From positions 1-5,516 of the forward strand of contig JAUMYC010000164.1 of the NCBI GenBank assembly GCA_030528845.1: DNA of 5,516 nt, written 5' to 3'. The position numbers were made by a program, and so were the translations under genes. The stretch comes from Eubacteriales bacterium. GTDB taxonomy: Bacteria > Bacillota_A > Clostridia > Christensenellales > Aristaeellaceae. Each line of letters begins with the position of its first letter. Position 1 is the stretch's first letter. A model generated the notes under the pieces. That model had not been told where the DNA came from. It did not search any database and saw only the letters and a list, made by a program, of their open reading frames with translations. Below are positions 1,238 through 5,516 of the stretch, piece by piece.

Positions 1238-3166
1238 ATGGCATTTAACGATTATGTACAGGCCCGCAGGCTCGGGCTGAAGGCCGCCCAGCAAAAAACT
1301 GCGGCGCAGGAATCGCCCTATCTGGCCGCGCTGGATGAAAAAGTGGAAAAGGTAAACGGCTATCCGCACATCTCGCTCGGGTTGATCCAGATCCCCGTGC
1401 AGCGTATCATCGGCACCTTCAGCAAGGGGCGCACCAACGCCTTCGCGGCCAATTTTATGCCCCTTCTGGAAGCGCGCAGCGAGTTTGGCCTGAAATGGTC
1501 CAGCCTGTTTGACGGCGTGATCCAGGACGGCGTGCTCCACCCGATCAAGGTGGTGGAATATCGCAACTGGTATTATGTGATCGAAGGAAACAAGCGCGTT
1601 TCCGTGATGAAATACCTCGGCACGGACTACGCGGAGGCCGAGGTCACGCGCATCCTCGCCCCGCATACCGACGACCGCGAGGGCCGCGTCTACGCAGCCT
1701 ATCTGCAGTGGTATCAGGACACGAAGATCAACACGATTTATTTTACAAAGGAAGGCTCCTTTGAAAAGCTCTATGAACTGACCGGACACGAGCCGGGAGA
1801 GAAATGGACCGCGGACGAGGCGAAGGATATGCAGGCGGCGTATCTGCGCTTTGCAGAGGTATACCATTCGCTTTACGGCGATCTGATCGATCTGGAGCCG
1901 GGCGACGCCTTTGTGCTCTATCTCAAGGTGTACGGCTACGACCCCTCCCGCCTGCCCACGGAGATCGAGGCGGAGCTGGCCGCGCTGCGCGGCGAGCTGC
2001 AAAAGGACGGCCAGCAGGAGCAGGTCGCGCTGATCATGGAACCGGAGGAGCAGAAGAGCGGCCTGTTCGACGTGCTCTTCGCGCCCAGCCTGATCAAGGC
2101 CGCGTTCCTCTATCACCGCTCGCCGAGGGATTCCGGCTGGAACTACTGGCACGAGCTGGGGCGCATCAACGCGAAAAATGCGCTGGGCGATAAGCTGGAG
2201 CACACGGTGCACGTCTGCATGGAGATGGACGAATTCGAGCCGGCGATGGAAAAGCTGATCGCCGACGGCAACCAGATCATCTTTGCGACCTCGCCCCTCA
2301 TGCTCGACGCCACCATCCGCGTTTCGCTCAAATACCCCAACGTGCATATCCTCAACTGCTCGCTGCTGGCCAGCTATTATCACGTGCGCTCGTATTATCT
2401 GCGCATTTATGAGGCGAAGTTCCTCATCGGCATGATCGCCGGCGCGATGGCGGACAACAACGAGGTGGGCTATATCACGGATTATCCCATCTACGGCGTG
2501 CCCTCCTCCATCAACGCCTTTGCGCTCGGCGCGCGCATGGTCAACCCGCGCGCGCGGGTGCATCTGGAATGGTCCACGCGCAAGGGCTTTGACCCGGAGA
2601 ACCCCTTCCCCGGGCAGGATGTGCGCATCATCTCCAACCGCGACATCTCCGCGCCGAAGCATTCCTCGAAGGTATACGGGCTCTACCGCGTGGAGGAGGA
2701 CGGCGAGCTGACCAACCTCGCCCTGCCGCTGTGGGACTGGTCCAAGTTCTATATCCCGATCATCCGCTCCGTGCTCTCCGGCACCTTCGTCAGCGACGCG
2801 AAGGGCAAATGGGCGCTGGACTATTGGTGGGGCATGTCCTCGGACGCGCTGGACGTGATCGTGTCCACAAAATTCGATCCCTATCTGCTCCGGCTGATCA
2901 ACACGGTGCATTCGCAGATGCAGGCCGGCCAGTTCTGGCCGTTTGAGGGCCTGCTCGTCTCGCAGGACGGCACGGTGCGCTGCGGCACGCAATCGCACCT
3001 CACGCCGCCGGACGTGATCGCCATGGACTGGCTGCTGGACAACGTCGTGGGCTCCTTCCCGGAGAAGGAAGAGCTGTGCGAGCACGTCTGGCCCATCGTG
3101 GAAATGCAGGGCCTGATGGAGATCCCCAAGATCGACAAAAGCATGTTCAACTGGAAAGAAAAATGA
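1238..3166 (+). CDS. Cytosolic ParB/Srx-like plus BMP (PnrA-type) nucleoside-binding domain protein
   Basis: A 642-residue protein usually labelled a BMP family ABC transporter substrate-binding protein, but it has no signal peptide or lipobox, so it is predicted to be cytoplasmic. Residues about 45-128 resemble a ParB/sulfiredoxin-like fold: IQIPVQRIIGT (50-60), a GR element, and VIEGNKRVSVMKYLG (114-128), which is like ParB box II. Residues about 130-265 are a mostly helical linker. From about 285 to 590 there is a BMP/PnrA periplasmic-binding-protein-like domain, with DSGWNYWHELGR (298-309, ligand-pocket loop), IIFATSP (347-353), YEAKFLIGMIAGAMA (391-405), GYITDYPIYGV (411-421) and INAFALGARMVNP (425-437). 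BMP proteins bind purine nucleosides, so this is more likely a nucleoside sensor or regulator than a transport component. No permease or ATPase gene is next to it. AAGGAG at 1228-1233 supports the ATG at 1238. I recall similar fusions in Clostridia, but their function is not established to my knowledge. Confidence 0.85.
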   Translation: MAFNDYVQARRLGLKAAQQKTAAQESPYLAALDEKVEKVNGYPHISLGLIQIPVQRIIGTFSKGRTNAFAANFMPLLEARSEFGLKWSSLFDGVIQDGVLHPIKVVEYRNWYYVIEGNKRVSVMKYLGTDYAEAEVTRILAPHTDDREGRVYAAYLQWYQDTKINTIYFTKEGSFEKLYELTGHEPGEKWTADEAKDMQAAYLRFAEVYHSLYGDLIDLEPGDAFVLYLKVYGYDPSRLPTEIEAELAALRGELQKDGQQEQVALIMEPEEQKSGLFDVLFAPSLIKAAFLYHRSPRDSGWNYWHELGRINAKNALGDKLEHTVHVCMEMDEFEPAMEKLIADGNQIIFATSPLMLDATIRVSLKYPNVHILNCSLLASYYHVRSYYLRIYEAKFLIGMIAGAMADNNEVGYITDYPIYGVPSSINAFALGARMVNPRARVHLEWSTRKGFDPENPFPGQDVRIISNRDISAPKHSSKVYGLYRVEEDGELTNLALPLWDWSKFYIPIIRSVLSGTFVSDAKGKWALDYWWGMSSDALDVIVSTKFDPYLLRLINTVHSQMQAGQFWPFEGLLVSQDGTVRCGTQSHLTPPDVIAMDWLLDNVVGSFPEKEELCEHVWPIVEMQGLMEIPKIDKSMFNWKEK

Positions 3167-3185: not shown

Positions 3186-3776
3186 ATGCGGATACTTGCG
3201 CTGGCGGACAAAGCCGATGAAATGCTCTGGGAGCATCTGGACAGGAGGCTTTTGGAAAATGTGGATCTGGTCATCTCCTGCGGGGATCTGTCGGCGGAAT
3301 ATCTCATGTTTCTGACCTGCTTTACAAAGGCGCCGATCCTCTATGTACACGGCAACCACGACGAGCGCTATGACAAAAAGCCGCCGGAGGGCTGCGAGTG
3401 CATCGAGGATATGATCTACGTCCACAACGGCGTGCGCATCCTCGGGCTGGGCGGCTCCTGCCGCTATCGCGGCGGGAAATGCATGTATACGGAAAAGGAG
3501 ATGGCACGGCGCATCCGCAGGCTGTGGTTTCAGCTCTGGAAGCACAAGGGCTTTGACATCCTCGTGACCCACGCTCCCGCGCGCGGCATCGGCGATGAGG
3601 AGCACATTTCGCACAGGGGCTTCGAGGCCTTTGTGCGCCTGATGGACAAATATCAGCCGCGCCTGATGCTCCACGGCCATGTCCACCGCGAATACTCGCC
3701 GCATTTTCAGCGCGCGCGCCTGCACGGGCAGACGCGCGTGATCAACGCCTACAAGCGGGTGTACGTCGAGCTGTGA
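3186..3776 (+). CDS. Metallophosphoesterase family protein (calcineurin-like fold)
   Basis: A 196-residue cytoplasmic phosphoesterase. Metal-binding motifs are clear: SCGDLS (31-36, Asp34), HGNHDE (55-60, Asn57 and His58), VTHAP (127-131, His129) and HGHVH (163-167, His165 and His167). The first motif, normally DxH, reads DKA (8-10): Asp8 is kept but the histidine is replaced by Ala10. This points to a YfcE-like but divergent subgroup, possibly with altered metal binding. Other marks are PPEGCECIED (66-75) and ILGLGGSCRYRGG (85-97), which I recall as conserved in clostridial members. The gene starts 19 bases after the BMP-domain gene with only a weak G-rich ribosome-binding site, so co-transcription and perhaps translational coupling are likely. 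The substrate is unknown. The pairing suggests a nucleotide or cyclic nucleotide, but that is inference. Confidence 0.9.
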   Translation: MRILALADKADEMLWEHLDRRLLENVDLVISCGDLSAEYLMFLTCFTKAPILYVHGNHDERYDKKPPEGCECIEDMIYVHNGVRILGLGGSCRYRGGKCMYTEKEMARRIRRLWFQLWKHKGFDILVTHAPARGIGDEEHISHRGFEAFVRLMDKYQPRLMLHGHVHREYSPHFQRARLHGQTRVINAYKRVYVEL

Positions 3777-3844: not shown

Positions 3845-3874
3845 TTGACAAGGGCGGGGGCGGAGTGGTAAAGT
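3845..3874 (+). promoter_or_regulatory. Promoter of the aroF-tyrA attenuator operon
   Basis: A perfect TTGACA (3845-3850) is followed after 18 bases by TAAAGT (3869-3874), a 4 of 6 match to TATAAT. The bases TGG just before it create an extended -10 element that would compensate. The start would be near 3881, about 27 bases before the leader-peptide ATG. A short dyad, GTGT-CTAAA-ACAC (3873-3885), overlaps the -10 end and start point and could be an operator or chance. Confidence 0.75.
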
Positions 3875-3898
3875 GTCTAAAACACCAAAGGAAAAGGA

Positions 3899-4000
3899 GC
3901 TTGCCCGATGCAGCACATGAACAGCAGCAAGGCCGCGTTCTTCTTTTATTACTTTACCTTTATCCAATAAGGGTAGAGTGATTCGTGCTGCAATGCAAGC
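3899..4000 (+). promoter_or_regulatory. Attenuator 1:2 (anti-antiterminator) helix
   Basis: TGCAGCAC (3909-3916) pairs perfectly with GTGCTGCA (3985-3992). The stem extends outward by GCTTGC (3899-3904) with GCAAGC (3995-4000) and inward by GAA (3919-3921) with TTC (3982-3984), with small internal loops between. The helix therefore takes in the last base of the leader Shine-Dalgarno and most of its start codon. It would form when translation of the leader is complete or absent, sequestering arm 2 so that the terminator folds. Confidence 0.7.
3908..3970 (+). CDS. Phe/Tyr-rich attenuator leader peptide
   Basis: A 20-codon open reading frame from ATG to TAA. A strong AAGGAG Shine-Dalgarno lies at 3894-3899 with an 8-base gap, which sets the start; the second ATG at codon 4 is less well placed. 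Residues 11-18 read FFFYYFTF, that is five Phe and two Tyr codons in eight (3938-3961). The N-terminal part is polar (MQHMNSSKAA). It resembles the E. coli pheA leader in length and composition but adds adjacent Tyr codons, which fits an operon for DAHP synthase and prephenate dehydrogenase. The peptide itself probably has no function beyond making the ribosome a sensor. The stop lies 7 bases before antiterminator arm 2, so a terminating ribosome touches that arm while one stalled on the aromatic codons does not. Confidence 0.88.
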   Translation: MQHMNSSKAAFFFYYFTFIQ

Positions 4001-4036
4001 CGGTGTTCCGGGATTTTACAGGCCGCGCAGAGTCAC
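3978..4036 (+). promoter_or_regulatory. Attenuator 2:3 antiterminator helix
   Basis: GTGATTC (3978-3984) pairs with GAGTCAC (4030-4036) and GTGC (3985-3988) pairs with GCGC (4025-4028). A4029 is bulged and there are two G-U pairs, for 11 base pairs in all. This removes 4025-4031 from the terminator's 5' arm. A small CCGG-TGTT-CCGG hairpin (4000-4011) sits in the enclosed loop and may bring the arms together. Confidence 0.72.
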
Positions 4037-4057
4037 ATCTGCACGGCCTGTTTTTTT
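4018..4057 (+). terminator. Intrinsic terminator of the attenuator (3:4 helix)
   Basis: ACAGGCCG (4018-4025) pairs with CGGCCTGT (4044-4051) and GCAGA (4027-4031) pairs with TCTGC (4038-4042), with one C-A mismatch and a GTCACA loop. Seven T's follow at 4051-4057. It is a strong, classical rho-independent terminator placed between the leader peptide and aroF, so it must be conditional for aroF to be expressed from the upstream promoter. Confidence 0.92.
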
Positions 4058-4098
4058 CGATGAATCAAGAAGCGGCGGAGGCAGACCGGCCGCGCAGA
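4021..4098 (+). repeat. Exact 11-base direct repeat of the terminator 5' arm
   Basis: GGCCGCGCAGA occurs at 4021-4031 inside the terminator 5' arm and again at 4088-4098, two bases before the aroF Shine-Dalgarno AAGGAGG (4101-4107). The second copy can pair with terminator arm 4 (4038-4048) in a read-through RNA, giving 10 base pairs and one mismatch. It can instead take part in a local hairpin, GCGGCGG (4072-4078) with CC-G-GCCGC (4086-4093). A role is inferred only; convergence of GC-rich sequence is the alternative. Confidence 0.6.
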
Positions 4099-4117
4099 AC
4101 AAGGAGGAAACAAGAAA

Positions 4118-5122
4118 ATGATCGCAGTGCTTAAACACGGGACTTCCGACCAGCAGAGGGACAGCCTGATCTCCTGGTTCAAGGGCATGGGGCTGGAGGT
4201 GCATATCTCTCAGGGCGAATATCAGTGCATCCTCGGGCTGATCGGCGATACCACCAAGGTGGACATGAGCCTGCTCGAATCCCTCTCTATCATCGATTCG
4301 GTCAAGCGCATCTCCGAACCGTTCAAGAACGCCAACAGGAAATTCCACGCCGGAGACAGCGTGATCGACGTCGGCGGCGTGAAGATCGGCGGCGGGCATT
4401 TTCAGATGATCGCCGGGCCCTGCTCGGTCGAGAGCGAGGAGCAGATCCTCGAGGTCGCGCGCAAGGTGAAGGAGGCTGGCGCGAGCATCCTGCGCGGCGG
4501 CGCGTTCAAGCCGCGCACCTCGCCCTATGATTTTCAGGGCCTGCACGGCGACGGCCTGCGGCTGCTCTCTCTGGCCAAAAAGGAGACGGGCATGCCCATC
4601 ATCTCCGAGATCATGAACATCAACGACCTGCCCCTGTTTGAGGATGTGGATATTTTGCAGGTCGGCGCGCGCAACATGCAGAATTTCGACCTGCTGCGCG
4701 AGCTCGGCCGCACGGGCAAGCCGGTGCTGATCAAGCGCGGCCTGGCCAATACGCTCAAGGAGCTGCTCATGAGCGTGGAATACATCCTCGCGGGCGGCAA
4801 CGAGCAGGTCATCCTCTGCGAGAGGGGCGTGCGCACCTTTGAGACCTACACGCGCAACACGCTGGATCTGAGCGCGGTGCCGGTGCTGCATGAGCTGACG
4901 CATCTGCCCATCGTGGTCGACCCGAGCCATGCCACGGGGAAATCCAAGCTCGTGGAGCCGATGGCCATGGCGGCAACGGCCTGCGGCGCGGACGGCCTGA
5001 TGATCGAAGTGCACAACGACCCCGAGCACGCGCTGTGCGACGGCGCGCAGTCGCTCCGGCCGGAGCAGTTTGCCAAGGTGGCCAGGAAAGTGATGAAGGT
5101 GCGGGAGGCGATCACGGAATGA
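4118..5122 (+). CDS. aroF: 3-deoxy-7-phosphoheptulonate (DAHP) synthase, type I-beta, AroF-like
   Basis: Cytoplasmic enzyme that condenses phosphoenolpyruvate and erythrose 4-phosphate to DAHP, the first committed step of the shikimate pathway. The 334 residues match the Thermotoga-type layout: an N-terminal ferredoxin-like regulatory domain (about 1-70), then a TIM-barrel catalytic domain. Motifs are AGPCSVES (99-106), [12 protein letters not shown] (126-137), [10 protein letters not shown] (181-190), IKRG (205-208), CERG (234-237) and DPSHATG (268-274). The expected metal ligands are all present: Cys102, His271, Glu297 and Asp308. The N-terminal domain in this family mediates Phe/Tyr feedback inhibition, so enzyme control probably adds to transcript control. 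No chorismate mutase domain is fused. AAGGAGG at 4101-4107 supports the ATG. The gene lies 60 bases after the attenuator terminator and its stop overlaps the tyrA start. Confidence 0.97.
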
Positions 5123-5516
5123 CAGTCGGGATTTGCGGCCTCGGGCTGATCGGCGGCTCGCTGGCCAAGGCCTATGCGCTCGCGGGCGCGCGCGTGCTGG
5201 GCTATGATACGGACGCGGGCGTATGCACCCTCGCCATGGCGGACGGCGTCCTCGCCGGGCTTTTGACGCAAGAGACCGCCGCGGAATGCGAGCTTCTGCT
5301 CGTGGCGGTCTATCCGCAGGCGGCGATGGAATACATGCGCCGTATCGCGCCGTTTCTCAAAAAGGAAACGATGCTGATCGACTGCTGCGGCACCAAGCGG
5401 CTCGTGTGCGAGGAGGGCTTCCGCCTCGCACACGAATACGGCTTTACCTACGTCGGCGGCCATCCCATGGCCGGCACGCATTTCTCCGGCTTCGCCGCCA
5501 GCCGCGCCACGCTCTT
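5119..5516 (+). CDS. tyrA: Prephenate dehydrogenase, N-terminal part (runs off window)
   Basis: Oxidative decarboxylation of prephenate to 4-hydroxyphenylpyruvate, the tyrosine branch after chorismate. Only the first 132 residues are present. They show a Rossmann fold starting [15 protein letters not shown] (4-18). Asp30 at the end of the second strand suggests NAD rather than NADP. DCCGTKR (88-94) corresponds to the usual D-x-G/C-S/T-x-K segment, and [12 protein letters not shown] (113-124) carries the catalytic His115. In most relatives I recall a Glu at the place of His121, so this is a mild oddity. The ATG overlaps the aroF stop as ATGA, with GGGAGG at 5103-5108, so translation is probably coupled and the two genes form one operon. 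The C-terminal dimerisation region, and any ACT domain, lie outside the window. Confidence 0.93.

Follow-up and report, generated by a model that had tools for sequence, protein, structure and literature searches.

How is aroF-tyrA controlled in this bacterium, probably one of the Clostridia? Firmicutes are usually regarded as T-box and TRAP organisms. T-boxes are common for such genes in the group, and TRAP-regulated leaders are marked by repeated (G/U)AG triplets. The leader ahead of aroF raises the question of whether a translating ribosome could take the measurement instead, through a short peptide rich in Phe (F) and Tyr (Y) codons. On the model set out below, the leader is very probably a ribosome-mediated transcription attenuator of aroF-tyrA that reads charged tRNA-Phe and tRNA-Tyr. 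The basis is computational throughout: a short open reading frame (ORF) that recurs in relatives, alternative helices that covary, and the states predicted for the RNA.

Leader signals and alternative helices

The window, meaning the whole stretch of 5,516 nt that was analysed, carries in order a leftward ORF of 329 aa (88-1077, from the ORF listing), a gene whose product has a Bmp/PnrA-type substrate-binding domain (1238-3166, domain match), a metallophosphoesterase gene (3186-3776), the leader, aroF and the start of tyrA. The product of the second gene is 642 aa long, and its residues 287-446 match the Bmp/PnrA substrate-binding family. The gene aroF (4118..5122, plus strand, like all features that follow) encodes a DAHP synthase with a ferredoxin-like (FXD) domain (PF00793, PF18152, NF006421), scoring 480.7 bits against NF006421 where the NCBIfam cut-off is 335, and is preceded by the Shine-Dalgarno sequence AAGGAGG (4101..4107). 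The 5′ part of tyrA, for prephenate dehydrogenase (5119..5516, PF02153), overlaps the aroF stop codon as ATGA.

A reading of the sequence alone had placed a promoter, a ribosome-binding site, an aromatic-rich peptide, competing helices and a terminator in that order upstream of the DAHP synthase gene; every element is present between 3845 and 4057, in the sequence stated: promoter, Shine-Dalgarno, 20-codon ORF, 1:2 hairpin, antiterminator and terminator. The motif scan finds a sigma-70-type promoter, TTGACA-18-TAAAGT with TG ahead of the -10 element (3845..3874), which agrees with the consensus at 10 of 12 positions (one found in the region, 0.1 expected). The Shine-Dalgarno sequence AAGGAG (3894..3899) lies 8 nt ahead of the ATG at 3908. 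The leader ORF, MQHMNSSKAAFFFYYFTFIQ, spans 20 codons (3908..3970) with the stop codon TAA at 3968-3970, is presumably translated, and has F/Y-rich counterparts at the same place in relatives. Its putative sensor codons, F F F Y Y F T F, occupy 3938..3961 and from 3948 on also form the inner part of arm 1.

In the minimum free energy (MFE) fold, the outer part of arm 1, UGCAGCAC (3909..3916), pairs with 3985-3992 (8 bp), while 3948-3963, within the F/Y codons, pairs with 3967-3982 (16 bp). Arm 2 (3967..3992) thus contributes AUAAGGGUAGAGUGAU to the F/Y codons and GUGCUGCA to the outer arm, an assignment that rests on the MFE fold and on the swap test over 71 sequences described below. The 1:2 hairpin is extended outward by a further 6 bp between 3899-3904 and 3995-4000, and this extension overlaps the edge of the leader Shine-Dalgarno sequence. 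Folding might in this way also reduce translation of the leader itself. The antiterminator 5′ strand, AGAGUGAUUCGUGCUGC (3975..3991), reads mostly as ...GAUUUGUGCUGC or near variants in relatives; it pairs at -19.7 kcal/mol with 4022..4040, a stretch that takes in the terminator's 5′ arm, its loop and the first part of its 3′ arm. The intrinsic terminator (4018..4057) has a hairpin at 4018-4051 of -24.5 kcal/mol, a T7 tail at 4051-4057, and ends 66 nt before aroF. One mismatch splits its stem into 8 and 5 bp, and a simple terminator scan, which apparently disallows mismatches, gave no hit in this region, against 0.8 expected by chance. The 273-nt leader as a whole folds with z = -3.55, and 1 of 200 shuffles folds equally well.

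Recurrence and covariation in relatives

A contig scan with the AroF of the window gave 80 loci with 61-81% identity over the best segment. Nearly all come from metagenome-assembled genomes, most titled Clostridia, Clostridiales, Bacillota, Oscillospiraceae, Ruminococcaceae or Lachnospiraceae and 3 of 80 titled Lentisphaerae or Thermoguttaceae. Three named strains are among them, and all carry the leader: Sporobacter termitidis DSM 10068 (L024), Aminicella lysinilytica DSM 28287 (L035) and Angelakisella massiliensis (L037). They make the proposed attenuator testable. The upstream set (n = 80) consists of the window and the 79 loci with at least 245 nt upstream of aroF; L058 was dropped.

Short ORFs with 5 or more F/Y per 10 residues occur in 71 of the 80 upstream regions versus 90 of 1600 dinucleotide shuffles. 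At 6 or more the counts are 67/80 versus 17/1600 shuffles and 7/1514 random 300-nt stretches from the same loci, and at 7 or more they are 52/80 versus 2/1600 and 0/1514. A chance ORF is excluded by these shuffles and random stretches. Other residue classes reach 6 of 10 far less often (Leu/Ile 17/80, Met/Leu 14/80, Lys/Arg 6/80, the rest 0-2). Two of the nine regions scoring below 5 hold weaker candidates (L006, which has WYWYYF, and L061), and the other seven are without any ORF reaching 4 aromatic residues per 10. In six of these seven (L019, L039, L049, L056, L064, L069) a same-strand ORF ends 10-70 nt before aroF, so that aroF lies directly behind another gene and a leader is not expected there. 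L065 is a true absence, with a terminator-like hairpin but neither a close upstream gene nor a leader.

Beyond these loci, an even sample of 59 genomes was taken from the order to which G024 belongs (L068 lies in this genome, titled Oscillospiraceae), and 41 of them have AroF; AroF was also found in 107 of 119 genomes of a phylum sample. Among the best 30 of the 41, 29 upstream regions were readable and 25 of these score at least 5 F/Y (23 at least 6), and among the best 30 of the 107 the figures are 14/29 and 9/29, both subsets leaning to close relatives and a score of 5 arising by chance in about 6% of shuffles. Leader-peptide attenuation thus looks like the usual way in which one order of Clostridia controls the first step of aromatic amino acid synthesis (25/29 among the best 30 of 41). 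At nine loci (L241-L243, L255-L257, L066, L074, L076) a second style of F/Y leader precedes aroF and continues into a GKAxxGLAE-like tail; these perhaps represent a different switch body. In L024, L001, L003 and others the leader ORF continues through arm 2, which is translated as KVRAIRAA, and the stop codon lies past the antiterminator strand, unlike in the window.

Could the F/Y run be conserved because the RNA pairs there, or because it encodes a small functional peptide, with the hairpins forming a riboswitch or protein-binding site and translation not acting as the sensor? Pairing alone would constrain the F/Y codons, which are paired with arm 2 in the MFE fold, and translation is itself a prediction. 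Against this, an ATG preceded by a Shine-Dalgarno sequence within 60 nt sits in the F/Y frame in 65 of 71 leaders and in another frame in 1 of 71, a comparison in which the choice of ORF, requiring an in-frame start, favours the 65. The peptides are alike in composition more than in sequence. Before other genes, moreover, nearly the same body carries a run of W, Y, I or L codons instead (see below), which a single riboswitch would not explain, and Rfam offers no match. This explanation is accordingly improbable. At E up to 10 the Rfam look-up, which was to tell whether the family is already described, returned three matches for the window, none a Phe/Trp-type leader or a T-box, and among 20 related loci it found no leader family and no T-box at gathering thresholds. 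A T-box, another tRNA-binding leader or a TRAP-like protein-binding leader that carries a chance F/Y ORF would be the usual device for such genes in Firmicutes as far as T-boxes go; with no T-box match and an F/Y ORF far above chance, it can be given almost no weight.

Conservation of the fold was followed in 73 sequences with an aromatic-rich ORF, the window included. A terminator is found in 53 of 73 by a strict rule and in 71 of 73 by a looser one (L012 and L067 are without), with a median of -19.8 kcal/mol. By the looser rule, -15 kcal/mol or better is reached by 66/71 real versus 5/213 shuffled downstream regions, and -8 kcal/mol or better by 71/71 versus 63/213. An alignment of 26 sequences with a clear core, running from arm 2 to the T-tail, has UUYGUG in common, and in most of them nUGC comes next. 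In the alignment of relatives, both sides have changed in 10 of 12 terminator pairs.

In the antiterminator the UUYGUG core is joined to the terminator's 5′ arm and loop, as in L015 (GCGAUUUGUGCUGC with GCCGCACAGAAUCGC) and L007 (GGUUAAUUUG with CAGAUUAACC). In the MAFFT alignment the bulge of the antiterminator is out of register and the alignment fold shows the terminator only, so the antiterminator was assessed by swapping arms and by permutation. An arm pairs better with its own partner than with that of another leader, both in the antiterminator (-18.0 versus -13.1 kcal/mol) and in the 1:2 helix (-22.7 versus -17.3 kcal/mol; n = 71 in each case, kinship ignored). Matching of the variable antiterminator hexamer to the terminator loop over 52 loci sums to 235 versus 199 ± 5 after permutation, a value that 0 of 5000 permutations reach, again with kinship ignored. 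The sequence-only reading had named a shared F/Y-rich short ORF and covarying helices in relatives as the test of its proposal, and both were found. The locus combines three features of a leader-peptide attenuator: a Shine-Dalgarno sequence and an ORF with codons for the amino acids of the operon, an intrinsic terminator between that ORF and the structural gene, and an antiterminator and an ORF-side hairpin that are mutually exclusive and covary (kinship ignored).

Predicted switching by the ribosome

In the proposed mechanism, a leader free of ribosomes would form the long 1:2 hairpin, in which GCAGCAC and the F/Y codons face arm 2; the antiterminator strand would be sequestered and the terminator would form. 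When Phe or Tyr is short, a ribosome would stall at 3938-3961 and the 1:2 hairpin would open, because the F/Y codons belong to arm 1. The freed 3975-3991 would capture the terminator's 5′ arm and loop, letting RNA polymerase continue into aroF. When both Phe and Tyr are plentiful, the ribosome would get to the stop codon at 3968 and cover arm 2, the terminator would form, and transcription would end prematurely. The leader would in this way sense both amino acids.

These states were simulated with an assumed ribosome footprint of 18 nt before and 14 nt after the first base of the A-site codon. The earlier estimate that a stalled ribosome would cover 'roughly 3920 onward' matches the rear edge of this footprint but not the first F codon. 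The nascent RNA of the window, folded to 4038 with no ribosome, has 0.1 expected antiterminator pairs. A lone ribosome on one F/Y codon raises this to 3.5-10.4, and a stall on F/Y together with a second ribosome at the ATG raises it to 13.8-13.9; an initiating ribosome alone gives 1.0 and a ribosome at the stop codon 0.3-0.8. A ribosome on the Ile or Gln codon before the stop also frees the antiterminator (13.8 and 10.8 pairs). Over 71 leaders the medians are 4.4 expected pairs with no ribosome, 12.9 with a stall, 13.9 with a stall and initiation, and 2.6 at the stop codon. Under a strict three-state rule (at least 10 pairs with stall and initiation, at most 5 with no ribosome and at most 5 at the stop), the simulated behaviour is seen in 32 of 71 leaders versus 8 of 213 controls with the middle segment shuffled, and 39 of 71 miss. 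A loose rule is passed by 56 of 71 leaders, with 15 missing, and by 86 of 213 shuffled controls.

The sequence-only reading had cautioned that a ribosome stalled on the aromatic codons would mask only the inner edge of arm 1, and that a queued ribosome or kinetic folding might be needed to keep the 1:2 hairpin from forming. This holds for the outer stem: GCAGCAC:GUGCUGC and its extension can survive behind a lone stalled ribosome in the simulation, and a queued one releases them. It does not hold for the inner half of arm 1, which consists of the F/Y codons themselves and is opened directly by the stall. A queued ribosome still helps in the window because the outer stem can persist behind the lone stalled one, and initiation by a following ribosome would be expected to free that stem. 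The dense F/Y run begins at codon 10 in the median leader, a start that would leave space for one initiating ribosome.

The terminator of the window is stronger than its antiterminator (-24.5 versus -19.7 kcal/mol), and the attenuator model therefore requires co-transcriptional folding. Equilibrium folding of the full leader, with ribosome masks one base off the codon frame, kept the terminator in every masked state. A plain terminator in the 5′ untranslated region that merely damps expression constitutively, with the F/Y ORF translated but non-regulatory, would agree with the strength of the terminator, and regulation by the leader is a prediction. The covarying antiterminator competes with the terminator, however, and is predicted to depend on ribosome position; such constitutive damping is thus very unlikely.

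The switch body before other genes, and a comparison with known systems

A covariance model, R1, was built from the 26 aroF-leader sequences and covers arm 2 to the T-tail. On 81 sources it gives a plus-strand match at the aroF leader in 58 at E<=1 and in 43 at E<=0.001, its own 26 included; the other matches in these sources are only weaker reverse-strand ones over the same terminators. Whole genomes chosen through aroF loci were matched in 23 of 25 cases at E<=0.1, the match in G022 (L102) being without a leader and chance-like. In further whole-genome sets the counts at E<=0.001 are 14/41, 19/40, 5/38 and 25/39. A search at the level of the order, with 22 candidates scored per genome, matched 18 of 197 at E<=1e-4, and a phylum-wide one matched 4 of 299, with 14 candidates scored per genome and thus with losses.

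Among the matches whose locus was read, 57 were classified, the genes being identified by Pfam or NCBIfam for one representative per kind and by eye from the N-terminal sequence for the others. Twenty are F/Y leaders before aroF, and beyond the 57 a further 11 order-level matches and 21 of 22 in another search are of the same kind. Four are F-rich leaders before prephenate dehydratase genes (pheA; L092, L140-L142). Ten are F/Y leaders before a TrpX-like substrate-binding protein (L106, L107, L165, L168, L171-L176; not L170); the ABC substrate-binding protein in L106 scores 218.6 bits, under the cut-off of 390, and the leaders suggest that this transporter carries Phe/Tyr rather than Trp. Four aromatic leaders containing Trp stand before a TrpB-like gene, L112 with WW and L114, L117 and L118 with one W each, and one YY leader precedes tyrS (L128), the gene starting 443 nt past the terminator. 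One of the 57 is chance-like (L177); it was set aside together with seven other matches of that sort (L108, L109, L110, L124, L125, L199, L102), some of the eight with E below 1e-4.

Nine of the 57 are leaders with a Leu run (such as MKRLNLANLLLLLLFTSKSE) before a TIM-barrel plus AMP-binding gene. The Leu-run loci are L131-L136, L138, L144, L145 and L104, with the cassette at about 1501 in most and L144 running into a contig end (1/57). Leu-rich leaders also precede prephenate dehydratase in two cases (L130, L137), and in L202 a Leu leader heads a gene order of prephenate dehydratase plus TIM/AMP, which a pure Leu reading does not explain. In some of them (L104, L132) the run of Leu codons is offset by one base from an F/Y-like frame in that RNA, which suggests a frame change that preserved the pairing. 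An F/Y reading of the Leu leaders was rejected, as that frame is without an ATG in the eight examined and broken by stops in several. Five of the 57 are Ile-run leaders (MMNQSSFAIIIGIIISFIIPSD and variants) before an HTH-cupin-AMP-binding gene (L153-L157, also L201). The visible part of this gene, which is cut by the locus end, resembles the acyl-CoA synthetase MbcS (106 bits versus a cut-off of 850) and may serve Ile synthesis from 2-methylbutyrate.

Taken together, these sequences could describe a codon-programmable attenuator family in Clostridia with a conserved body and exchangeable sensor ORFs, a reading for which the chances are about even. The proposed body would consist of the stop codon, the antiterminator strand around UUUGUGnUGC and the paired terminator; the proposed sensors, which stand or fall with the same evenly poised reading, would be Phe/Tyr for aroF, Phe for pheA, Tyr for tyrS, Trp for the TrpB-like gene, Phe/Tyr for the TrpX-like gene, and Leu and Ile for AMP-binding operons. 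The sensor codons suggest substrates, linking the TrpX-like transporter to Phe/Tyr and some AMP-binding operons to Leu or Ile. They may show the re-addressing of one attenuator body to a new amino acid. If true, the family would be a ribosome-read counterpart of the T-box that spreads among operons by a change of the codon run alone. The Clostridia leader family is ready for Rfam.

In the pheA (pheL) and trp attenuators of E. coli, a short ORF contains runs of codons for the regulated amino acid, the 1:2, 2:3 and 3:4 helices compete, and an intrinsic terminator precedes a biosynthetic gene. The aroF leader is like them in its short ORF, competing helices and intrinsic terminator. It differs in its target, aroF-tyrA, in sensor codons that make up much of arm 1, in a mixed Phe/Tyr run and in having no Rfam leader match at E up to 10. 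The view that leader-peptide attenuation is unusual for Firmicutes, from which the sequence-only reading had started, gives way to two published precedents. Predicted His leaders of hisS paralogues in bacilli (PMC2965389) likewise take the place of a T-box in Firmicutes, and they differ in using His codons before genes of tRNA synthetase type. The Leu-responsive ilv attenuator of Staphylococcus aureus (PMC5794164), which has mutant and reporter support, is also a leader-peptide attenuator in a Firmicute; it serves a branched-chain amino acid operon, uses Leu codons, and has a proposed antiterminator that pairs with the poly-U tail region.

Two systems come closer in target and were compared by their published descriptions. 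Attenuation has been proposed for the uORFC-13-1 motif at Acholeplasma aroF (PMC8632094), where a uORF with Phe codon(s), a possible promoter and a ribosome-binding site are followed by a terminator upstream of aroF. Its 24 representatives, as given there, are confined to Acholeplasma and environmental sequences, and the motif is described as having one Phe codon or more, not an extended F/Y run. Two uORF candidates with notable F and Y at shikimate genes, from a set of five genomes including Clostridium novyi (PMC6429828), resemble the aroF leader as F/Y-encoding uORFs tied to shikimate metabolism genes, and might even be identical to it. A T-box survey (PMC2494555) makes no mention of aroF, aroA, pheA, tyrA, leader peptide or DAHP, and no paper on such an aroF leader in Oscillospirales or other Clostridia was found in the literature within reach, which left out supplements and most subscription journals. 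Ribosome-mediated transcription attenuation is a known kind of mechanism. What is apparently new is how widely it occurs in Clostridia, together with the conserved body and the exchange of sensor codons.
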